A DNA stretch of 33,142 bases, from IMG/VR virus record IMGVR_UViG_3300032093_000501, positions 1 to 33,142 of that record. One strand, 5' to 3'. Every line of letters starts with the position of its first letter. Position 1 is the first letter of the stretch. The stretch is from a virus. The notes beneath the pieces are model-generated. The model did no database searches, had not been told where the DNA came from, and saw only the letters and a list, made by a program, of their open reading frames with translations. This document shows positions 19,399 through 33,142 of this stretch, one piece after another. A program made the translations under genes and the position numbers.

Positions 19399-22350
19399 TC
19401 AGGGCTGCTTCATGCCCTGCAGGAATTCCTTGTTGAACTCGATGGCCAAGCGGTCGCGCTCGGCCTGTAGCCGCTTGCGCTCGGCCTTCTTCTCGGCGTC
19501 AGGCCGGTCGCTGCGGACGATCTCCACCTCTTCCTTGCGCATGCGCGTGAGCTCCTTCTGCTGGCGCTCCTGCAGCTTGGCCAAGTCCAGCAGGCGGTTG
19601 GTCTCGGCGTCCAGCTCAGGCTCGATGCCGATCTTGCGCTGGCGCTTGACCTCCTCCACCAGCTCGTCCACCTTGCGCCGGCGCTCGGCCGCGCTGCGGA
19701 TCGTGGCGTCCTCGTCCACCTCGCCGTAGAAGCGGTTGACCACCGGCATGCTCTTGGCGCGTAGGTTTTCGTCGTCGCTGGACATCGCAATGATGGAGTC
19801 GGCCATCTGGTTGACGAACGTGCCCAGGCCGCCGCCGGTGGCCGAGATCAGCGTCTTGATCGTGCCCGGCGTCACCGAGGTCTCCACGCCCAGGATCTCG
19901 CCAGGCTTGGCCGCGTTGCCGCCGCCCGCGGTGTTGAGCGCCTCGGCCACCTTCTGCGCAGCCGTGCCCTGCATGGACGGGAACATGCGCTCGGAGTCTG
20001 GCCTGGTGTCGAACGACGCCTTGCTGGGCGAAGCCGGCGAGCCGAACGTGTTGCGCTCGGTGGCAAGCTGGATCGGCAGGTCGACCAGGGTCGGCATCGC
20101 CGCCAGCAGCACCTGCACGCCGTCGGTGACGTCGACGGATCCACCAAAGGGGTTGACTGAGCCGAACACCACCGAGGTCATGTGGACGGCCGCCTTGGCC
20201 GGCGTCACGCCACGGGTCTTGTCTTGGCTGTTGCGCCAGACGTCGGCCGTCATGTAGCCCAGGTTGGGGAAGATGTTGAAGCCGTACTGCACGGGGATCT
20301 TGATGTACCGGCCACGCTTGCCCACCCGGCTGATGCCCTCGCCCAGCGGCTCGCCAGGCGGCAGCATGATGATCAGGTTGCGCTCCTTCTCAAAGGCCGG
20401 CACCTTGTCCCAGTACGCCTCGCCGTCGTCGTCCTCGCCGCCCGCAGACGCGCCGTACAGGGCCAGCATCGCGCTCACCCCAGCCACGCCCGCCATGGCC
20501 GACATGACGGCCGGGCTCTTGAGCACGCGCCCGAGCTGCGCCGTGCCCTGTACGCCGGCGTTGAAGAACAGGTACAGGTTGTTCAGCGCCCCGCCCCACT
20601 CGCCCTTGCGGTTGAAGTTGGTGGTGCCGTTCTTGGCCAGCAGGGCCGCCTCGACGCGGGTCTTGCCCACATCTTTGGCGGCGGTGTAGAGCGCGAACCG
20701 GGTGGCGTTCTCGCTGGCCGAGCCCAGGAACTCGAGCGACCTCATGACGAACCGCGCCGCCTTGAGCGGGTAGGCCTTGGACTTCGGCCCGGCCATCATC
20801 AGGTCGCGCTGCAGATCCTTCCTGATGTCCTCGACCGAACGCATGTAGAAGCCGCCCGTGATGCCGCCGGCCGTGCGGAACTCGTCGTACAGCGGGTCAG
20901 CCTTGAGTCCCAGTTCGGACTTGCCAGAGGCCACCAACGCCTTGCCGAAGTTCAGCGTGTAGCGCGCCAGGCCCTTGGGCCCGAGCTCAGCCAGGGCTGC
21001 AGTGGTGCCCGACCACAGGGCGTCGCGGGGGAGGTTGATCGCCGCGAAGGCCGGGTTGTAGCGGGTCAGCACGGCGCGCAGCCAGTTGTTCCACCAGCCG
21101 GTGGCCGCCAGGGTGGCGCGCTCGAGCCCGCTTATCTCGTCCTTCCAGGCCTGGCGCAGCGCACGGGCGAGCTCTGGGTCGGCCAGCTTGATGTAGACCT
21201 GATTGCCGCCCACCTTCACGCCGATGGTGTCCTCGCCCTTCTCGACGTTGGACGTGAACTGCACGACGCCCTGCGCCTTGTTGAACGTGGGCTTGCTCTT
21301 GACCACGTCCACGCCCCACAGGTCGGGGTCGGGGTTGGACAGCACGAAGTCCAGCAGCACCTTGCCGACGTCGTTCTTTTCGATGCGCTGGATCACGCGC
21401 TCGTAGTCGCGGATGGCGTTCTCGATCAGCCCGCCCGCACGCGAGGTGCGCCCCAAGGCACGGATCGTTTCCTGGCCCCGGATGTTGACGCCGCGGCCCA
21501 CCCCTGGCCGGGCCACGCCGGTCTCCTCCACGACGTTCTCCCAGCCCCGCAGGGGGATGTAGAACTCGTAGGCGCCGTCCATGGCGTCAAACTCGTCCTG
21601 CGTGATCAGGCCCTCGTTCAGCATGAGCTGCCGGGTGGTGGCCGTGATCGACATCAGGTCTTTGTGCAGCGCGTCGTACTCGGCCTGCTTGCCCGACTGA
21701 GCCACCCGCTGCAAGATCGCGGCGGCGTCTGCGTTGGTCATGCCCGAGCCACCGTCGGGCAGGCGCGGGTTGATGCTGGCGATGTAGGCGTTGCGCTCTG
21801 CGGCGTGCTTGGCGTAGGCGTAGATGGCCAGCTCGTCCATCTCGATGTCGGCCTTGATCGCCCGCTCGGTCATCGGCCGCAGCACGTCGACGCGGAAGTC
21901 CTCCACCGCAGCCTGGATCCGGCCGGGCATCAGGGTGTTGGCGTCGTAGAAGTTCTGTCTTTCTCCGACCCTGCGGCCCTTGGCTTTGACCGCGTCGATC
22001 ACGCGCCTCATGCGCAGCGCATCGTCCTGCAGTTTGATGCGGACAGCGTCGGTGGCCGACGTCGCGGGCAGCGTCATGGTCTGGCCGATGACGGGGCCGC
22101 GATTGCTGGCAGCGATGCCTTCTTCCTCGACAGGTGTTGCAACCTCAGACTCTGGAACCTCTTCCACCATCCCCGCCGCATCCATGATCAGCGTGCGCAT
22201 CTGCTGCGCCCGCTCGATGATGGCCTTGGCTGCGGCAATGGCCGCGGCGTTGCCGTTGCCGCCGACGCGCTTGATCTCGCTCTCGAGCTCGGCCACGTCC
22301 TTCGGGCTGAACAGCTCGGTCGTGGTGATGCACTTGCTATACGTGGCCAT
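19399..22350 (-). CDS. LPD38-type large polyvalent-associated virion protein
   Basis: A 983-aa protein. The start at ATG 22350 is preceded by AGGAG at 7 nt. The open frame continues further upstream but only as the shadow of the repeat gene, whose stop it overlaps by 14 nt. The long central part (AFAAINLPRDALWS; SLEFLGSASENATRFALY; NGTTNFNRKGEWGGALNNL) matches the large polyvalent protein-associated domain LPD38, with helical and membrane-active-looking segments near residue 650. A charged coiled coil forms the last 100 residues. An ASNRG motif near residue 80 echoes the linkers of the giant protein at 24832-33142. It is probably packaged or ejected with the DNA. Confidence 0.65.
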   Translation of the reverse strand: MATYSKCITTTELFSPKDVAELESEIKRVGGNGNAAAIAAAKAIIERAQQMRTLIMDAAGMVEEVPESEVATPVEEEGIAASNRGPVIGQTMTLPATSATDAVRIKLQDDALRMRRVIDAVKAKGRRVGERQNFYDANTLMPGRIQAAVEDFRVDVLRPMTERAIKADIEMDELAIYAYAKHAAERNAYIASINPRLPDGGSGMTNADAAAILQRVAQSGKQAEYDALHKDLMSITATTRQLMLNEGLITQDEFDAMDGAYEFYIPLRGWENVVEETGVARPGVGRGVNIRGQETIRALGRTSRAGGLIENAIRDYERVIQRIEKNDVGKVLLDFVLSNPDPDLWGVDVVKSKPTFNKAQGVVQFTSNVEKGEDTIGVKVGGNQVYIKLADPELARALRQAWKDEISGLERATLAATGWWNNWLRAVLTRYNPAFAAINLPRDALWSGTTAALAELGPKGLARYTLNFGKALVASGKSELGLKADPLYDEFRTAGGITGGFYMRSVEDIRKDLQRDLMMAGPKSKAYPLKAARFVMRSLEFLGSASENATRFALYTAAKDVGKTRVEAALLAKNGTTNFNRKGEWGGALNNLYLFFNAGVQGTAQLGRVLKSPAVMSAMAGVAGVSAMLALYGASAGGEDDDGEAYWDKVPAFEKERNLIIMLPPGEPLGEGISRVGKRGRYIKIPVQYGFNIFPNLGYMTADVWRNSQDKTRGVTPAKAAVHMTSVVFGSVNPFGGSVDVTDGVQVLLAAMPTLVDLPIQLATERNTFGSPASPSKASFDTRPDSERMFPSMQGTAAQKVAEALNTAGGGNAAKPGEILGVETSVTPGTIKTLISATGGGLGTFVNQMADSIIAMSSDDENLRAKSMPVVNRFYGEVDEDATIRSAAERRRKVDELVEEVKRQRKIGIEPELDAETNRLLDLAKLQERQQKELTRMRKEEVEIVRSDRPDAEKKAERKRLQAERDRLAIEFNKEFLQGMKQP

Positions 22351-24394: not shown

Positions 24395-24844
24395 TTACTC
24401 GGGGATTGCTCTGATGGACTCGACGAGGCCGTCCTTGCCTCGTGCGAACTCAAACTTCCAGCCCTTTGGACGGGGCATCTCGACGTTGACGACGGGCGTC
24501 GGCATGTCGATCTTTGGCATTGTGATATTTGGGGCAGCTTGATTAACCTGCAGCTTCAGGTTCTGCACCGCTTTCACAAGGGCGTCGAAGTTGGCCTGGT
24601 TGGCGCGCACCGCCTCGGCCACGGATGACACGTCCAGCTCCGGCATCGGGGGCGGCGCCTTCACCGCCTCAGCCGCCTGCAGGGCGCTCTCAACCTGCGA
24701 CATCAGGGCCTGCATGCTGCGCTTGCCGTCCTGCAGCAGGCGCATCGCGGCGTCCACCGACATCTGGTCGGAACCCTCGTCATCAAAGGTGCCGCCGATC
24801 TCGTTGGCCAGAGATGCCCATTCACTTGACTTCATTGCAGGCAT
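24395..24844 (-). CDS. Phage protein with C-terminal WKFEF...IRAIPE module, 149 aa
   Basis: The first 110 residues are helical and acidic; the last 30 (KGWKFEFARGKDGLVESIRA) form a small motif often found at the end of phage virion-associated proteins. ATG 24844 has GGAG at 8 nt; ATG 24835 is an alternative that overlaps the giant gene's stop by 4 nt. An operator-like element lies inside the coding sequence (24512-24527). The function is unknown. Confidence 0.55.
   Translation of the reverse strand: MPAMKSSEWASLANEIGGTFDDEGSDQMSVDAAMRLLQDGKRSMQALMSQVESALQAAEAVKAPPPMPELDVSSVAEAVRANQANFDALVKAVQNLKLQVNQAAPNITMPKIDMPTPVVNVEMPRPKGWKFEFARGKDGLVESIRAIPE
24512..24527 (-). promoter_or_regulatory. Operator-like site inside a late gene
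   Basis: The minus strand reads TATCACAATGCCAAAG (12 of 16), within the 149-aa gene and oriented with its transcription. Confidence 0.45.
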
Positions 24845-27800
24845 TTCAGCAGCTCCGAGTAACGGTTGATTTTAGCGTCGAGCTTCTCCACCGCGCCAGC
24901 GGGATTAGGCACGCGCATGGTGCGGCCGCCGATGATGACGGACACCGGGCCTGCGGGCTCGGACGCAGCCATCTCGGGGGCGGCGCGGTTGGAGGCTTGC
25001 ACCGCGTCTCCGACCCGGCCTTCGGTCCACGTCCACTTAGGCATGAGCCCGGTCTTCTGGTCGGCGAAGACGGTGTCTTTGACGATGGCTGTGCGGTTGT
25101 GCTCGCCGACCGTAATGGTCCGCCAGTTGTCCGGGTGCAGTTGCTCCGCCTTCTCTTGCCCGACCACGTCCTTGAGCAGCTCCGGGTTGTAGTTCAGCCA
25201 AGAGTTCTGGCCGCGGGTCTCGCTGGTGATGGCGGCCACAGCGCTGCCAGTGAACAGCCTGGCGTGCGCCTGCCAGGCGTTCTCCTCGCCCTGCTCGCGG
25301 AACCCTGCGCCTTCCATGCCGTGGCCAAAGGCATCATGCACGGCGCGGAACAGGTCGTTGGCCAGCACAGGCCGGAGCTCACCGTCGGGCGAGCCATAGG
25401 GCCAGAGCATGTCGGTTTCGGCTTCCATCAGGTTGCCTTCGAAACCGCTGTCCGACTCCTCACTGCCAAACCCATCGGCAGTCGAGAACACGCCCATCGA
25501 CTGCTTCGACCGCAGGTCGCGCAGCGCGTCCCAGGGGCTCTTGTATGGGTCGTTCTTGGGGTCGATGAACCAGAACTTGTAGCCGGCCGCCTCAAGGGCG
25601 CGGTACTGCGCAGTCGTCTGGCGGATCAGGTTGTCGTAGGCTTCCTTGACCTTCGGATCCTGCGGCGCGTGAGCCATCGCCTCGTAGACGGCCGCGATGC
25701 GTGCGGCACGCTTGGGGTCTACTCGGACGTATTCGGCTTGTCGCTTGAGGTCGATCCCGTTTTCGCGGGCGTACTGCTCTGCGACTGCGACGATGCGAGG
25801 GTCCGGGCCTGTTGCGCCCTCGATGACCGGGACGCCTGGAAGCGGCGCCGGTCCTGCACTATCTGCGCGTCCTCTTCCGTCTCCGACGGCTCGATTGGAG
25901 GCGCTGATCTGGTTCCCACCAGGAAGTTCTCCTCCCTGTTGGCTTCCATCGACCGATACCCGTCCAACTGCTGCCGCAATGCTCTCACGAACGGGGCGTC
26001 CCTGCCAAGCCTGGCTTCGGCTCTGATCAGTTCCTGCTGTAGATGCTGCACCTGAGTAGGCATCGATTGCTCCTTGATACTCGCCAGCAAACCGCGTATC
26101 GACTTCATAGTCGAAGCGGCCGGCAAATGACACACCGTCGAACTTACGCAGGACTTCATCGGCAAAGTTGCCAAGGTTGTCTGCGCGCTCTCTGATGATA
26201 TCACCAATGTTATTTTCTGTGGCATCAGCAAGCCGCGGGTCAAGGCCGTATCGCGCCTCAAACTCAGGCATGTAGATGATTCGCATGCCAACCGGAGTGC
26301 CCATCGCGCCGGAGCGAGTCGTCGGGGTGCGGCGGCCGTCCACGATGATGGTGTAGCCGGCAACCTCAAAGTAGCCAGGGCCGACCTCGGTGGTCTTGGC
26401 GATGCGCTTGCCAGCGATCTCGGCCATCATCTTGGCCGCTTCCTCGGCCTGCTTCATGTCCCGGAAGTAGATCTCGATGCCGGGCCGGTGCTTCAGCGGA
26501 TCGAACTTCTCATCCGGGCGCAGCACCCGTGCGACGAACGCCGAGTCTTGGTTCGCGTCTCGAGCAGCCGTGAACACTGCCGCCGCCATCGGCCGCGCAT
26601 TGAAGCCGGCCCGGGCAATGACCTCCATGTCAAGGGCGCGTTCGACTGAGCCATAGCGGCCCTGGGTCGAGATCGCTTTCAGGCCAATGACCGTCGCCCC
26701 ATCGTCGACCGAGATAACAGCTTTTTCAATCGAATTGGCCAGGTCTGACATGGCCGTATCTGTTGGCTGCTGATCGCCCTGCTGAATCGACAGGCCGCCC
26801 ACAAACCTGTCCACGGTGCGGGACATCTGCTTGAGCTTGCCCACCGCCGCAGCCCGGCTGGCCTGGCTCTGCTCCACCGTAGGCTTGCCCAGCGTGCGCT
26901 GCGCCTTGGAGATCTGCTTCTCCAGATCTTTCACCGCCACGGTCTTCCGGGCCTTGTCGATGGCCTTGCGCGCCGCTGCGTTCTCAGCCGCGATCTCCTT
27001 CTTCTGCGCGCCGGTCAGTTTGTCCTCAGGCTTGGCCGTCTTGTCGGCAACCAGGCGCTGAGCGTTGCGATCCAAGACAGCGTTGGCCTGGGCAATCGCC
27101 GGCACGCTCTCAATCTCCTTGCGCACCCGGGCGATATCAGCGGTCGCTTGCGCACGCTGCTCAGCCGTTGTTGCCACGGAGCTGTCAGCGATGCGACGCA
27201 GGTCGGTCACTGCATCCCGGTCCTTGATACCGGCCAGATCGGACTCGAGCTCAAAGGAGCCGCCCTCACCAGCAGCGGAAGTCCAGTTGCCCTTGGTCCA
27301 GACCTCCTTCTCAATGAACCACACCAGCGCCTGCAGGTCGTCATCGTTGATGCTGCGCAAGGTTGCGTCTTGAGACAACTCCGCGTCGTTGCGGATGAGC
27401 TTGACAGCCTCGCCGAAGACGTTCTGCCCAAAGCCGAACTGCAAGGTGTTGCGCCCATCCTCCAGCGCTTGCCCACTGACGCCGCCCTCGGCCATGCTGG
27501 GGATACGCGCTCCCCCAGCCAGCCTCTGCAGCATGCGCGCCGCCCAGACGTCGATCGTTGCTCTTGCGCGGAAGCCGATCAAGTTGCCCGAGAAGTTGAT
27601 TGCCTTGGGCGCGGTGCCTCCGCGGTTGATGTCCGGGTCTGCGTTCTTGACTACCCGCCACAAGTCGACGATGGCGCGCACGACGTTGCCGCCGTTGAAG
27701 CCGAACTTCTTCCCGTTCGCCTTCGTGGGCATCAGGCTGTCGGGGAGCTTCCTGGCATCAGCCAACTCCTTGGCCATGACCTTGTACTCGTCGGTCTTCT

Positions 27801-30800
27801 TGATGGCCGCCTTGGACATGCCGCCTTCTTGCTTGGCGTTGAACCAAGCGCGGAACTGCGTTTCAAGGTCGTTGACTTTCTGTGACCACTCAATCCACTT
27901 GGGCACCATGTCGTCGAACTTGCCGTTCGACAACAGACGCAGCGCCTCGACACTGTTGTCCCAGTTGGTGCGAACGGGTGTGTTCGGGCTGGTGGCACCC
28001 AGCAGATCCGCGAACAGATCGCCAAGCCCGCCGAACTCTTGCCGCAGGCGGGTGCGCATCTCCTTGTACCAGCCAGACTGGTCGATGATCTTGCGCGCTG
28101 CCGCGTCGCCGGCCTGGGCGCGCTTGTAGACGGCGCGCACCTCTTCCAGCATCTTGCTGGCCAGTTGATCGACCTGGACGGTGTACGCAGATGTCTCGGG
28201 CTGCAGAGACTTCCCGCCGCTCCCATTGCTGAATTCGTAAGGGATGGTCTTGTACTGCAGCACGTACTTGCCGGTGACGTCGTCCTTCTTGACGCCGTTG
28301 AAGACCAGCGGCGCCCAACCGTCTTCGACCGGGTGGGCGGCCTTGTGCTCTCGCACTTGGGTCTCAAGCTCGCTTGCCGAGAGCTTGAGCTTGGCGGCGC
28401 TGGCTCGCACTTTGGTCTTCTCTTCGGCGGACACGACCGTGCGCTCGGCAATAGACCGCTCACCCCGCACGGCAGCCAGGATGTGAGTGTCAACAGAGCC
28501 CACCCGCTTGCCTTCTGTCGGGGCGTCCTCTTTCACCTTGTTGCTGAACATCGGCAGCCCGCTGGTGGCCACCTTCTCGCGCATGGCGGGGGTGATGTCG
28601 AAGCCGGATTGCTGGCTTGGTACCTCGGACAGCGCGACCATGTCGCCGCCGAGCGCCTGTGCGGCCGATATGGAACCGGCCTGCTGCATGGCGCTTTCGA
28701 TTGACTGCCCGCGGCGCACCAGGTCTGCGACTTCGTTGAGCTGCGATTGGATCGCCGACGGCAGGTTTGGGTCGTCAGCCACTGCGCGAATCTCAAACAC
28801 ACCCAACGTGGGCCCTTGGTACTCGCGACGTTCCTGCAGGCCGGTGCCGCTCTCCGGCCGACCTTGCACGTCGATCGTCGCCGCAATAACCTGCCCACCA
28901 CCCACCTTCGGCAGCAGCTTCTTCAGCGAGCCGAGCAGGAATGATGGCGCTCCCGTCTTGGGGTTCATACCGCTCTTGTCACCGTAGAAGGCCTCAAAGC
29001 CCTCACGGCGCGGCATCGCAGTACCAGCGCCTTCTGCCTGCATGCGCTCCCAGATCTTGGGCGCAAGGTCCGCAGCGTTTTGCCCCTCGGTCAGCGCCGG
29101 GCGGATCGTGTTTTCCAGTTCTTTGACGGAGCGAACGGTGTTGCTGTTGGTCTTGGACAAGCCGCGTGCAACAGCCTCAGCCTCAAGGTTCATGCCGGCC
29201 GCGTCGCCGCCTTCCTGGCTCTTGGCGCGGACAAGAAACGACCCGTCAGGCTGCTTGGCCCAGTCGATGCGCTCTGTGCCCCAGCGCTTGAAGTGAGGCT
29301 CTGCGTCAGCGAACGCCACCCGGTCGTAGCCACCCTCGGCAGCCATGACCATCAGGCGCTTGAGGGCGAGGTTCAGCCAGCCTTCGGTCTTGGTGACGAA
29401 GGGGGCCTTAGGAACGCCGCTGGCATTCGCGCCGATGAACCCGGCGGGGTCGCCTTCCATCCCAGCAACGAACTGTGGTTCACCCTTGAACCCCTTCTTC
29501 TTCCCCTCCTGCCCCCAATCCGACTGCAGCTCCTCGACGAACAGCACGCGTTTGCCATCGGCATCGGTGCGGTCGTTCACGCGGATGTGGGCCAAGACGT
29601 TGGGCTGGTCCCAGTGGCTTGAGCGGTACTGCGCAGCTGGGGCTTCGGCTGACGCGTACGACAGCATGCGATTGCGCTCAAGTTCCTCTGGCGTCGCTTT
29701 CTGCAGCCAACCATTGCCGTACTTTTCCCGCATTGCCTGCTTGAAAGCATTGGCCTTGTTCAGTTTGACCTCAGCGCTTTCAGGGCCGGGGGTATTCGGC
29801 AGCGTCAGCAACACCTCACGGTAGTTCTCACCGCCGGGGAGGGTGTACTGGCCGTACTTGGTCGGGCGCTCGGCTGCGGAGTCTGGATCCCAGCCGTCGG
29901 CCATCGCCTCGGCTGACGTGGCGCCCTCTCCGCGCACCTCATTGTTGTCATCAACCAGCACGTAGCGGTAGGCGGCGTCGTCGTCTTCGGTCGCCTCGCG
30001 CACGCGCCAGCCGGCAGGCAGGTCTGTGGTGCCCTCGTCGGACAGCACCGTCTCCTCCACCCGCACCCCACCCTGCTGCAGGTACTCGGCCACTTCGGCC
30101 TTCGTCACCTTCTGCCCGGCAGCGCGCTTGAGCTCGAGGAAGTCCTCGACGCCAGACCACTCGATTTCGTCGGGCTTGACGCCCTTGGTGGTCAGGCCGC
30201 GGATGTAGCCGCGCCACTGGTCCGGCATCGCTTGGCCGGGTCCGGCGTCAATCTTGCGCGCCAGCTCGCTGTACATGCCCAGCGGGTTGACGTCGGCGGC
30301 GCGGTTGCTGGCAGTGATGCCCGGTGCGGTAGCCGTCGTGGCAGCCGCAGGCACCTGCTGCCCCTGAGCCTTCATGGCATCGGCGTAGGCCGTCGACACG
30401 GCGTCGCGCACGGCCACCGCATCGGTGGCGTAGCGCTGGATGAAGTCGTCACCGTAGGCGCTCTGGGCGCCCTGGATGAAGGTGTTCAGCTTGTCGAGGA
30501 TGACCTTCGCGACCTCGGTGAAGTCGCCGTCGCCCATCTTCGTGCGCAGCTCTTGCCAGAAGTCCTGCCGCTTGGTGACCGCCTGCGTCATGAACGCGGC
30601 GATCTCGTTGTCGATCTCAGCCTCGTTGTTGATGTCGTACTGGAACTTCTGAGCGAAGTCCGCACGCATGTCGGTCTTGGTCAGACCCTTGATTGTCGTG
30701 ACCAGCTTCTCGCGAATCGGCTGCGGCAGTGCATGCACGCCCTCGTGCATCATCACGAACAGCGCGCCGTCGCTCGACTTGCTGTCCAGGTAGATGTTCT

Positions 30801-33142
30801 GATCTTTGCCCGGGATCACAAACCCGTTGGGCATCTCGTCCGCAGGCCCGGCCACGTAGTCCAGGTACGTGACCGTCTTGCCCACCAACCGCGCCATCGC
30901 GCTGGCGACCTTCTGCTGATCGGTCAGGTCTCCTGCGTGCAACTCGACATCGACACCGCGGGCGTTCTTCAGCATTGTGATAGCTTGGCCCGCAGAACGA
31001 AGCGGCGCGGGCGGGGCCAACTTCAGGGTGAAGGCAGGTTCATTTGCCGCAGCACCTCCGACCGTAGCGGCTCCTCCAGGCAGTCCGGGTGGATTACCTC
31101 CCCCCTGTCCGAGATCGACCATCCCTGCGCCCGCAACTCCTGGCTGCTGCGCGCCACTTCCGCTCGCCGTTGCAGCCAGGCCTTGGCCTGCTGCTCCAGT
31201 GACTGCTGTTCCACTCGCGTCTCCCTTCTGGTATCCAACGATCTGGAAGCGCCCATTGCCCATCGGCTCGACGCGCCAGTCGTGCGTTTGCCTGGTGTCA
31301 ATGACCGTGCTCGCGGTGGCCATTGCCTGCTCGGCGTCTTGCTCATTCGCATAGCCGGTCTTTGTGCGACCGGCCCAGGTCAGCGGCTTGCTCGCCTCAG
31401 TCAGACCTGCAGCCTGCTCGGCTCGAGCCAGCAGGTCGGCGTCAGTGGCGCGCTCACCGCGCCCGGCGCTCAGTGACGGGCCAGGCTGGGTGGCTCCAGC
31501 TCCCAGAAGTGCAGCACCTCCATCACCGGCCAGAGCTCCTGCGGCATTGACACCTCCGGTGCCTGGGACTGCAGCATCTCGTCCTGCACCGCCCAGGCCT
31601 GCGAGAGGGTCACTGCCCCCTGCAACACCGCTTCCTCCAGCCAGTCCTCCAAGTACATTTGGTAGGCCGACATCAGTTCCTCCGGCTGCAGCAGGCGCCG
31701 TCGGCACCACGATGGGCGCCAGGCCAGCCTGCGCAGTGATGCTATCAGGGGGGGTGAAGTTGATCGTGCTGCCGATCAGGCCTGCGTCGTCGCGTGCCGG
31801 TGCGGACGGGCCCACGTCCATCGCAGAGCGTGCGGTCTGCGTGGGAGAGATGAACTCTTCAGACGGGTTCGTCGTGCTCAAGTTGGCACGGGCGTAGGCG
31901 TCGGTGAGCGGGTCCACGCCCTGCTCTCGGCTCGCAAGGTACGCGGACGCGCCGGCCGTTGGTGAGGTGGTCACCAGGGTGGTTGCGGCGATCTGGCCGA
32001 AGTCCTGCGTGAGCGCGCGATTGGGGTCAACCTGCCCGATGGCAAAGTTGGCCGCGCCAGTGGTCGTCAGCTCGTCAGCAAGCTCCGTCGTGATCTCCGT
32101 GACGGCTGCACGCTTGGCTGCTCCTCCAACAGCCTGCCCTGCGATCTTCTTGGCCAGCAGCCCCTCAAAGCCAGCAGCACCAAAGATCACGCCGCCGGTT
32201 GCGGCAATGCTCTGCGCCAGGCGCGCCTTGGTCAGCGCGACTTCGCTCCGCGCTTCCTCAAACGTCTTGCCCTCGTCCATGAGGCGCTTGACGTCGGCGT
32301 TCTCGCGCATCAACTGCGCGTTCTTCTTGCTGGTCAGCTCCTCGTAGACCTGACCAGCAGCATCGCCGCCTGCGGCAACAGCGGCCGCACCACGGGCAGT
32401 GGCAACAGCGCCAGCAGCGCGCCCTGCGCTGACCACCATGCCCCCAGAGATGGCGTCTGCAAGTGCGACCTTGGGCGCGACTGCCGCCGCGCCACGCACC
32501 GCCAATCCACCCACGCCGCCGCCGAACACGGTGGCCGCGATCATGGCTCCCATGAGCGGGCCCTGACGGACAACCTCCTCGACCGCGATCGTCGGGTTGG
32601 TCACGAACTCCGCCAGCATGACAGCGCCCTTGGCCCACTCGTTGGGCTGCTGCGCCAGCTTGGACGCAAACTGCTGGGCCCGGTACTGCTCAGGCGCAGA
32701 GATGGCCTCCTGCGAGGCCTTCATCTTCTGGGCCAGCTCTGCAGCCCATTGGCTTGTCGGGTCGATCGTGTTGGCGATGACTTGGCGGGCCATGATGCCG
32801 CCCTGCTCAAGCCGAACGCCCAGGTCGCCCAGGTACTCCCCAACCGTGCGGTCGCGATCCAGGTTGACGACCCTGTTGGCCTCGTCCATGCGCATGCCTT
32901 CGTCGGCTGCGCGAACGCCCTGCGCCAGCATGCGCCGCTCGGCGATCTGCTTGGCGGTGCGGCCCTCCATGACGTCGCTGATGCCGGGGAAAACATCGGG
33001 CACCGGCACGGGGGGCGGCGCCACGCCTGCGCCCGGGCGCGGAGGCGGCAGGTTGCCAGGGCCACGCGGGGCGTCCAGCAGTCGCTGAGCGCGCCCCTCT
33101 TGGTCGAGGTTGATGCGCTTGTTCTCTGCCTGCACCTCGGCC
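24832..33142 (-). CDS. Giant polyvalent virion-associated protein, N-terminus off the window
   Basis: The frame is open from the right edge to 24832, giving 2,769 codons, and the true start lies outside. Residue numbers below count from GTG 33135. Residues ~170-240 are Ala/Gly/Val-rich and membrane-prone. A zincin-like HEGVH motif lies near 796 (MMHEGVHALPQP). Around 1172-1207 is the phage module SHWDQPNVLAH...LFVEELQSDW. Around 1718-1735 is SPNTPVRTNWDNS (a DUF7178-like module, from memory). A C-terminal module near 2598-2640 has HDAFGHG and TRGQNSWLNY. ASNRA recurs between modules (about 946, 2415 and 2717). Low-complexity linkers separate domains. Such multi-enzyme chains are packaged and delivered with the DNA in podoviruses and are thought to modify host targets. 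Confidence 0.8.
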   Translation of the reverse strand, partial: AEVQAENKRINLDQEGRAQRLLDAPRGPGNLPPPRPGAGVAPPPVPVPDVFPGISDVMEGRTAKQIAERRMLAQGVRAADEGMRMDEANRVVNLDRDRTVGEYLGDLGVRLEQGGIMARQVIANTIDPTSQWAAELAQKMKASQEAISAPEQYRAQQFASKLAQQPNEWAKGAVMLAEFVTNPTIAVEEVVRQGPLMGAMIAATVFGGGVGGLAVRGAAAVAPKVALADAISGGMVVSAGRAAGAVATARGAAAVAAGGDAAGQVYEELTSKKNAQLMRENADVKRLMDEGKTFEEARSEVALTKARLAQSIAATGGVIFGAAGFEGLLAKKIAGQAVGGAAKRAAVTEITTELADELTTTGAANFAIGQVDPNRALTQDFGQIAATTLVTTSPTAGASAYLASREQGVDPLTDAYARANLSTTNPSEEFISPTQTARSAMDVGPSAPARDDAGLIGSTINFTPPDSITAQAGLAPIVVPTAPAAAGGTDVGLPNVLGGLAGGSGVAGGSDPLAGLGGAGRDAAVPGTGGVNAAGALAGDGGAALLGAGATQPGPSLSAGRGERATDADLLARAEQAAGLTEASKPLTWAGRTKTGYANEQDAEQAMATASTVIDTRQTHDWRVEPMGNGRFQIVGYQKGDASGTAVTGAAGQGLAATASGSGAQQPGVAGAGMVDLGQGGGNPPGLPGGAATVGGAAANEPAFTLKLAPPAPLRSAGQAITMLKNARGVDVELHAGDLTDQQKVASAMARLVGKTVTYLDYVAGPADEMPNGFVIPGKDQNIYLDSKSSDGALFVMMHEGVHALPQPIREKLVTTIKGLTKTDMRADFAQKFQYDINNEAEIDNEIAAFMTQAVTKRQDFWQELRTKMGDGDFTEVAKVILDKLNTFIQGAQSAYGDDFIQRYATDAVAVRDAVSTAYADAMKAQGQQVPAAATTATAPGITASNRAADVNPLGMYSELARKIDAGPGQAMPDQWRGYIRGLTTKGVKPDEIEWSGVEDFLELKRAAGQKVTKAEVAEYLQQGGVRVEETVLSDEGTTDLPAGWRVREATEDDDAAYRYVLVDDNNEVRGEGATSAEAMADGWDPDSAAERPTKYGQYTLPGGENYREVLLTLPNTPGPESAEVKLNKANAFKQAMREKYGNGWLQKATPEELERNRMLSYASAEAPAAQYRSSHWDQPNVLAHIRVNDRTDADGKRVLFVEELQSDWGQEGKKKGFKGEPQFVAGMEGDPAGFIGANASGVPKAPFVTKTEGWLNLALKRLMVMAAEGGYDRVAFADAEPHFKRWGTERIDWAKQPDGSFLVRAKSQEGGDAAGMNLEAEAVARGLSKTNSNTVRSVKELENTIRPALTEGQNAADLAPKIWERMQAEGAGTAMPRREGFEAFYGDKSGMNPKTGAPSFLLGSLKKLLPKVGGGQVIAATIDVQGRPESGTGLQERREYQGPTLGVFEIRAVADDPNLPSAIQSQLNEVADLVRRGQSIESAMQQAGSISAAQALGGDMVALSEVPSQQSGFDITPAMREKVATSGLPMFSNKVKEDAPTEGKRVGSVDTHILAAVRGERSIAERTVVSAEEKTKVRASAAKLKLSASELETQVREHKAAHPVEDGWAPLVFNGVKKDDVTGKYVLQYKTIPYEFSNGSGGKSLQPETSAYTVQVDQLASKMLEEVRAVYKRAQAGDAAARKIIDQSGWYKEMRTRLRQEFGGLGDLFADLLGATSPNTPVRTNWDNSVEALRLLSNGKFDDMVPKWIEWSQKVNDLETQFRAWFNAKQEGGMSKAAIKKTDEYKVMAKELADARKLPDSLMPTKANGKKFGFNGGNVVRAIVDLWRVVKNADPDINRGGTAPKAINFSGNLIGFRARATIDVWAARMLQRLAGGARIPSMAEGGVSGQALEDGRNTLQFGFGQNVFGEAVKLIRNDAELSQDATLRSINDDDLQALVWFIEKEVWTKGNWTSAAGEGGSFELESDLAGIKDRDAVTDLRRIADSSVATTAEQRAQATADIARVRKEIESVPAIAQANAVLDRNAQRLVADKTAKPEDKLTGAQKKEIAAENAAARKAIDKARKTVAVKDLEKQISKAQRTLGKPTVEQSQASRAAAVGKLKQMSRTVDRFVGGLSIQQGDQQPTDTAMSDLANSIEKAVISVDDGATVIGLKAISTQGRYGSVERALDMEVIARAGFNARPMAAAVFTAARDANQDSAFVARVLRPDEKFDPLKHRPGIEIYFRDMKQAEEAAKMMAEIAGKRIAKTTEVGPGYFEVAGYTIIVDGRRTPTTRSGAMGTPVGMRIIYMPEFEARYGLDPRLADATENNIGDIIRERADNLGNFADEVLRKFDGVSFAGRFDYEVDTRFAGEYQGAIDAYSGAASTAGTDQSRSQAWQGRPVRESIAAAVGRVSVDGSQQGGELPGGNQISASNRAVGDGRGRADSAGPAPLPGVPVIEGATGPDPRIVAVAEQYARENGIDLKRQAEYVRVDPKRAARIAAVYEAMAHAPQDPKVKEAYDNLIRQTTAQYRALEAAGYKFWFIDPKNDPYKSPWDALRDLRSKQSMGVFSTADGFGSEESDSGFEGNLMEAETDMLWPYGSPDGELRPVLANDLFRAVHDAFGHGMEGAGFREQGEENAWQAHARLFTGSAVAAITSETRGQNSWLNYNPELLKDVVGQEKAEQLHPDNWRTITVGEHNRTAIVKDTVFADQKTGLMPKWTWTEGRVGDAVQASNRAAPEMAASEPAGPVSVIIGGRTMRVPNPAGAVEKLDAKINRYSELLKCLQ
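25719..26063 (-). CDS. Nested ORF 3 in the +1 frame of the giant gene, 114 aa
   Basis: ATG 26063 has a perfect AAGGAG with six bases of spacing. The first ~65 residues (MPTQVQHLQQELIRAEARLG, then APFVRALRQQLDGYRSME) read as a well-formed helical protein like small phage coiled-coil proteins. The last 35 residues are Ser/Thr/Lys-rich and overlap a conserved-looking part of the host frame, so they may be passenger sequence. The host frame over the first part is a Ser/Gly/Ala linker. It shares the same relative frame as the two other nested ORFs. Confidence 0.4.
   Translation of the reverse strand: MPTQVQHLQQELIRAEARLGRDAPFVRALRQQLDGYRSMEANREENFLVGTRSAPPIEPSETEEDAQIVQDRRRFQASRSSRAQQARTLASSQSQSSTPAKTGSTSSDKPNTSE
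30967..30982 (-). promoter_or_regulatory. Operator-like site inside the giant late gene
   Basis: The minus strand reads TATCACAATGCTGAAG (14 of 16), just downstream of nested ORF 2 and oriented with transcription. Confidence 0.5.
31023..31214 (-). CDS. Nested ORF 2 in the +1 frame of the giant gene, 63 aa
   Basis: GTG 31214 is preceded by AAGGGAG with six bases between. The product begins VEQQSLEQQAKAWLQRRAEV, continues with GWSISDRGEVIHPD and ends LRSEVLRQMNLPSP: a charged helix followed by a small beta turn, protein-like throughout. The host frame is a Gly/Pro/Ala linker here (residues ~641-705). It uses the same alternative frame as the nested ORFs at 31470 and 25719. Open frame upstream of the GTG (to 31352) has shadow-like composition and is excluded. 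Confidence 0.45.
   Translation of the reverse strand: MEQQSLEQQAKAWLQRRAEVARSSQELRAQGWSISDRGEVIHPDCLEEPLRSEVLRQMNLPSP
31470..31673 (-). CDS. Nested ORF 1 in the +1 frame of the giant gene, 67 aa
   Basis: ATG 31673 has a GGAGG ribosome site five bases upstream. The product (MSAYQMYLEDWLEEAVLQGA, then LSQAWAVQDEML and LWPVMEVLHFWELEP) looks like a genuine acidic two-helix protein and not an out-of-frame shadow, which here are usually R/S/P-rich. In the host frame the same DNA encodes a Gly/Ala-rich linker (residues ~488-556). It is therefore a candidate overprinted gene. The alternative is that Gly-rich codons happen to give a protein-like frame. Confidence 0.45.
   Translation of the reverse strand: MSAYQMYLEDWLEEAVLQGAVTLSQAWAVQDEMLQSQAPEVSMPQELWPVMEVLHFWELEPPSLARH

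Follow-up and report, generated by a model that had tools for sequence, protein, structure and literature searches.

Small genes probably nested in linker-coding stretches of a giant polyvalent-type phage gene

Can the flexible linkers of a giant phage protein be, in another reading frame, genes in their own right? The question is raised by three small ORFs that lie within a giant multidomain ORF of a virus record, which we analysed entire (33,142 bases; the window). From sequence comparison, we consider it probable that these small genes are expressed through internal initiation and that the host frame over them is merely Gly/Ala/Ser linker. The unbroken host frame would then encode a spacer, rich in Gly, Ala and Ser, that separates domains of a giant phage protein of the polyvalent type, and the +1 frame would give small, mainly helical proteins: n1, n2 and a fusion of n3 and n4 (Table 1). 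Ribosomes would initiate internally at strong Shine–Dalgarno (SD) sequences on the same late mRNA to make the small proteins, and selection would act chiefly on these, with the host frame needing only to remain open and flexible.

Table 1. Host gene, nested ORFs and their initiation signals in the window
Feature	Coordinates	Strand	Remarks
Host ORF	24832..33135	-	Giant multidomain polyvalent-type ORF, 2767 aa from first GTG
Host domain separating n1 from n2	31228..31460	-	Conserved; limits approximate
n1	31470..31673	-	67 aa, ATG, frame +1
n2	31023..31214	-	63 aa, GTG, frame +1
n3 core	25884..26063	-	Residues 1-60 of 114-aa ORF; predicted helical hairpin
n4-like C-terminal half of 114-aa ORF (ETEEDAQIVQDRRRF...)	25719..25883	-	Separate SD-led nested ORF in relatives
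SD of n1	31679..31683	-	GGAGG, 5 nt before ATG; -9.5 kcal/mol
SD of n2	31221..31227	-	AAGGGAG, 6 nt before GTG; -8.4 kcal/mol
SD of n3	26070..26075	-	AAGGAG, 6 nt before ATG, inside host codons for YQGAI; -7.7 kcal/mol

The host ORF is truncated at its 5′ end by the window edge; many of its relatives have a closed 5′ end and measure 2,300–3,400 aa. By tblastn it is related to a DarB-like protein and to one annotated as a large polyvalent protein, and we therefore treat it as polyvalent-type; Pfam assigned no individual domains to it. Through the host gene we collected 51 loci, among them L002, which is the same virus (100%). The contig of L002 and L085 (IMGVR_UViG_3300032116_001685) is identical to the window across the 3′ part of the host gene and the genes that follow, and as the same virus it provides no independent evidence. 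The domain between n1 and n2, which the initial annotation had picked out as conserved-looking, is indeed so, with 82–83% identity to L116–L118 over 65 aa. Elsewhere in the window, a 978-aa protein (19399-22335, minus strand) matches giant polyvalent families in their C-terminal region (in phrog_14770, residues 2525-3417 of 3427). Its counterpart forms part of the giant ORF in L010, L110, L022, L040 and L043, but here it is a separate gene, with four genes between it and the host ORF. These four free-standing genes (24844-22337) were not found in the fused relatives, nested or otherwise.

The initial annotation had placed the three ORFs in a shared +1 frame, each behind a strong SD 5–6 nt ahead of its start. 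Both observations are borne out, the third ORF spanning 26063-25719, and the SD duplex energies rank n1, n2 and n3 in the strongest 2.4%, 5.3% and 7.1%, respectively, of 169 out-of-frame internal starts. An element similar to the n3 SD is present in L003, L049–L051 and L112. Each ORF is complete within another ORF in a different frame, the arrangement of a same-strand nested gene. The third had also been described as beginning in a Ser/Gly/Ala linker; it actually starts where a conserved host domain reaches its C-terminal limit (...EYQGAIDA...), not in mid-linker. These three are the only SD-led +1 ORFs of at least 60 aa in the host gene. Synonymous shuffles of that gene (n = 500) contained a mean of 0.5 such ORFs and reached at least three in 1% of cases, so the ORF observation alone is suggestive, not decisive. 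Because the +1 frame also holds 342 of the 360 SD-led nested ORFs in giant ORFs of this kind, largely for compositional reasons and mostly as R/S/P-rich shadows of the host, the common frame is weak evidence alone.

The relatives are more informative for n1 and n3. The window's own nested proteins, used as sole queries, matched no homologue; tblastn against the host-gene relatives found n1 in L005, L010 and L011 and n3 in L003, L004, L030 and L049–L051, nested in the same frame. Scans with family alignments brought the tally to 18 n1 loci and 19 n3 loci, with two n1 loci added later (L100 and L105) and n3 also present in L112, a contig of a Burkholderiales metagenome-assembled genome (MAG). 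In the final counts, which include the window and exclude near-duplicates, n1 occurs on 20 viral contigs as 16 distinct proteins and n3 on 20 contigs (one of them the Burkholderiales MAG) as 18 distinct proteins, all wholly nested, on the same strand and in +1. Both frames are maintained throughout: in none of the 40 cases is the host frame interrupted by a stop where the nested gene lies. The nested starts and SD are kept down to about 40% protein identity; the SD is weak or absent in L105. Homologues therefore exist, and the nested frames are open in relatives. The earlier impression that all three ORFs encode real proteins is upheld for n1 and n3, which form conserved families; the protein homology of n2 is not significant. 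The L112 giant ORF (CAIVGK010000053.1), with its nested n3, comes from a contig assigned to the bin of an uncultured Burkholderiales bacterium, a hint that Burkholderiales may be the host group.

Substitution patterns distinguish the two frames. Identity in the nested frame exceeds that in the host frame in all 78 pairs of n1 sequences, and host-frame identity is the higher in just 1 of 91 pairs for n3. In close pairs, differences within the nested genes peak at host codon position 1, which is nested position 3, and those in the remainder of the same gene peak at host position 3. For L064 and L065, differences at host positions 1/2/3 number 15/2/1 in n1 versus 142/94/547 in the rest of the gene, with a pN/pS of 0.06 in +1 and 6.9 in the host frame; L053 and L059 show a similar flip. 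For n3, the counts are 15/9/7 between L071 and L073 and 16/7/12 between the window and L003 (8/2/0 in the best stretch), the latter a weaker flip than in close pairs. The comparison of the window with L003 was left out over n2, where the host frames of the pair are misaligned. When 1,112 aligned segments were scanned blind with a sliding window, most of the flips fell in n1, in n3 and in two additional nested genes, and weaker ones, some in the +2 direction, lay in fast-evolving linkers. The expectation that the nested frames would be under purifying selection distinct from that on the host frame is thus confirmed for the n1 and n3 families, including the window's n3 against L003, and we regard both genes as almost certainly double-coded.

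Codon usage in the window adds a ranking of its own. Under four scorings of the codon-usage margin, the 20 stretches that most favour +1 all fall within the three ORFs or overlap them. The scan is robust as a ranking only, since its absolute sign depends on training: it is positive when nested regions are excluded, but with those regions in training, +1 never rises strictly above the host frame against one of the two backgrounds. Read in its own frame, n1 has GC contents of 0.70/0.36/0.90 at codon positions 1/2/3; read in the host frame, it has 0.90/0.70/0.36. The nested-frame values are 0.73/0.44/0.83 for n2 and 0.64/0.45/0.70 for n3. Across loci, codon usage does not favour the nested frame uniformly: it does so in 10 of 14 for n1, 7 of 8 for n2, 8 of 12 for n3 and 0 of 5 for the FKSK family described below.

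The 114-aa ORF is probably two nested genes fused. In L004 and L030, n3 (61 aa) stops at a TAA, and right after it comes another ORF with its own SD and ATG, n4 (PETEQDAQ...RRRFQAL...). We read the window's ORF as a fusion because its C-terminal half aligns with, and is homologous to, this separate nested ORF. Of about 45 loci, most carry a similar ORF ahead of this same host domain, and many of these ORFs have an SD and an ATG. Over n4, both the host and the nested frames are conserved, and in one of two groups the host frame is the more conserved. Since the host frame is conserved there too, n4 is less certain than n1 or n3, and double coding is somewhat more likely than not.

The case for n2 comes from position, SD and base composition, which together make a double-coded nested gene likely. 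In nearly all n1 loci, a nested family with the signature KPLKPSKxKRK is located after n1, and in L053 the nested ORF of this family is preceded by the same host domain as in the window (GNGRFQIVGYQK) and an SD. The window's n2 occupies the same position, with an SD directly upstream as in L053. It does not contain the KPLKPSK block, and its best score against the family, 42, was reached in 52 of 2,000 shuffles, a similarity that is not significant.

Further nested families sit in different linkers and are unrelated to one another. A member of phrog_2423 is nested in +1 within the giant ORF of L024 (L024:8133-8303; E = 2.4e-21) and likewise in L026, L027, L029, L034, L037, L046, L047 and L052; no phrog_2423 gene was found in the window. 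In other phages, the family is free-standing, for example after a P22-like coat gene (MW202867) and in phiEap-2, and in Acinetobacter phage AB1 it makes up the N-terminal end of the head maturation protease. The FKSK family (MPFKSKQQVKYLYSQEP...), nested in +1 in L013, L015 (8694-8843), L019, L020, L028 and L031, has a clear phase flip (14/2/0), little or no SD and a weak match to phrog_1375 (E = 4.8e-4). One pair of loci also suggests how nested genes might take part in host evolution: the n1 DNA of L053:7871-8077 and L057:4635-4841 is 98% identical between flanks of 34% and 52% identity. This island looks like a recombination joint between exchanged host modules, and n1 islands may more generally act as joints for the exchange of host domains.

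How might such genes have come to lie where the host protein has its linkers? The likeliest account, which we judge to have an even chance of being correct, is that small genes lying between domain-coding genes, or at their ends, were bridged when the neighbours fused, and that their −1 shadow became the linker. In high-GC genes, shadows in this frame are rich in Gly and Ala and fairly often free of stops. Back-translated n1 and n3 read in the host frame are 64% GASPTQN and stop-free in about 23% of cases (8.7% for n1 in the other frame), so bridging a small gene in the host frame would naturally give a flexible linker. Because phrog_2423 is free-standing in unrelated phages, the linker over its nested members must be the younger frame; because the nested frame of n1 has the more normal codon composition, the linker there may have begun as a shadow cast by the gene and not as a landing place for it. 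As to whether the nested gene is older than the linker, phrog_2423 and the codon use of n1 favour this, FKSK does not and n3 is mixed.

The initial annotation had instead seen the linkers as landing places for nested genes. Its core very probably stands, in that conservation, selection in +1 and the conserved ATG and SD all point to genuine nested genes in linkers, but the view of linkers as landing places is supported only in part: phrog_2423 and n1 codon use speak against overprinting of a pre-existing linker, and a joining of neighbouring genes over a small one explains the data no less well. A search among the relatives for empty sites gave no clean case with both flanks, and no split relative with free-standing n1–n3 was found; for this reason, the bridging origin is something we infer, and de novo overprinting, in which n1, n2 and n3 were born as new genes within flexible linkers that already existed, is a serious rival, one that we consider possible though short of probable. 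L005, L010 and L022, which align on both sides of the n3 site and have a linker of similar length with no recognised n3, would suit such an origin. So would the distribution of the genes: a proposed check for free-standing homologues returned nested copies only, with no free-standing n1, n2 or n3 in phage records, IMG/VR scans or one GTDB contig scan, and no match when phage records were searched by tblastn using the n1 and n3 relatives. What speaks against it is that phrog_2423 is an old free-standing family, which makes its linker the younger frame, and that n1 is more genome-like in codon composition than the host frame at the 10 of 14 loci noted above.

The small genes could also have been inserted into linkers as mobile elements, in the manner of the out-of-frame homing HNH gene in phage methylases (ShiLan), a precedent for an out-of-frame gene within a phage gene that is read through without stops (PMC11855218). 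The presence of unrelated families in different linkers would agree with this, but we consider it unlikely, as neither Pfam nor PHROGs matched a nuclease or other mobility domain and no empty site with both flanks was found. Chance open frames in a GC-rich gene, made protein-like by host conservation, would account for the abundance of long, R/S/P-rich +1 ORFs and for the shuffles that reach three; this reading is very improbable overall, being contradicted for n1 and n3 by a substitution phase that tracks the nested frame and not the host, by nested proteins better conserved than the host frame and by starts and SD that persist at low identity, and it is possible for n2 and n4. That the +1 segments are alternative host C-termini reached by programmed frameshifting is scarcely credible: in the window, 34 codons ahead of n1 and 121 ahead of n3 are free of stops in the nested frame, but ATG and SD are conserved, and a nested-frame stop directly before the start rules out frameshift access in L057 and L058 (n1) and in L076, L079, L087 and L112 (n3).

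Structure prediction gives n1 three to four helices (pLDDT 77) and n3, modelled on the relative in L074, a helical hairpin (pLDDT about 90 over residues 1–37). A fold search with n1 against viral and PDB libraries returned no match with E below 1. Because phrog_2423 adjoins a coat gene elsewhere, our guess, offered tentatively, is that the small proteins might be late accessory phage proteins.

Gene finders usually discard ORFs that lie wholly within larger ORFs, so at least four small phage families (n1, n2-like, n3 and nested phrog_2423) would be missed in the annotation of these genomes. Polyvalent linkers might often be shadows of older bridged genes that are still expressed, with islands serving as joints for domain swaps and the giant gene amounting to a hidden operon, an idea that we put forward as speculative. 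If linkers are generally shadows of bridged genes, this would provide a concrete, testable route to many-domain proteins, in which domains are formed and exchanged while the small genes are kept, and it would indicate a place to seek unannotated phage proteins.

The initial annotation knew of no description of nested genes in polyvalent proteins, and our literature search likewise returned none, although it covered subscription journals little and so argues only weakly for novelty. The polyvalent proteins known from phages and conjugative elements are very large and multidomain, with shuffled domains (PMC5512222), and some relatives here are annotated as DarB-like or polyvalent; searched by term, that paper mentions neither linkers nor genes that overlap or lie within others. 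The nested phrog_2423 genes (L024, L034 and others) belong to a family that is free-standing elsewhere. The small gene Rz1 likewise lies entirely within a larger phage gene, Rz, in a different frame and with an internal start of its own (PMC6139136), but the two are one lysis pair with partner proteins, Rz itself is small and there is no link to interdomain linkers. The HNH gene of ShiLan is, like the genes here, complete and out of frame within an outer frame that stays open, and the outer-frame segment is predicted to loop out of the methylase (PMC11855218). ShiLan, however, involves a homing nuclease with a disjunct distribution, whereas here there are no nuclease matches and small proteins lie at fixed sites, several per host gene. 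The hepatitis B virus (HBV) polymerase spacer over the surface gene also joins two domains of a large protein and is the alternative frame of another gene; a review has proposed that the short gene S originally sat between two others, which became linked through a frame that arose inside S (PMC8227390), an explanation of the same kind as the bridging proposed here. HBV is a eukaryotic virus with one such overlap, whereas here several unrelated small genes occupy different linkers of one phage protein family.
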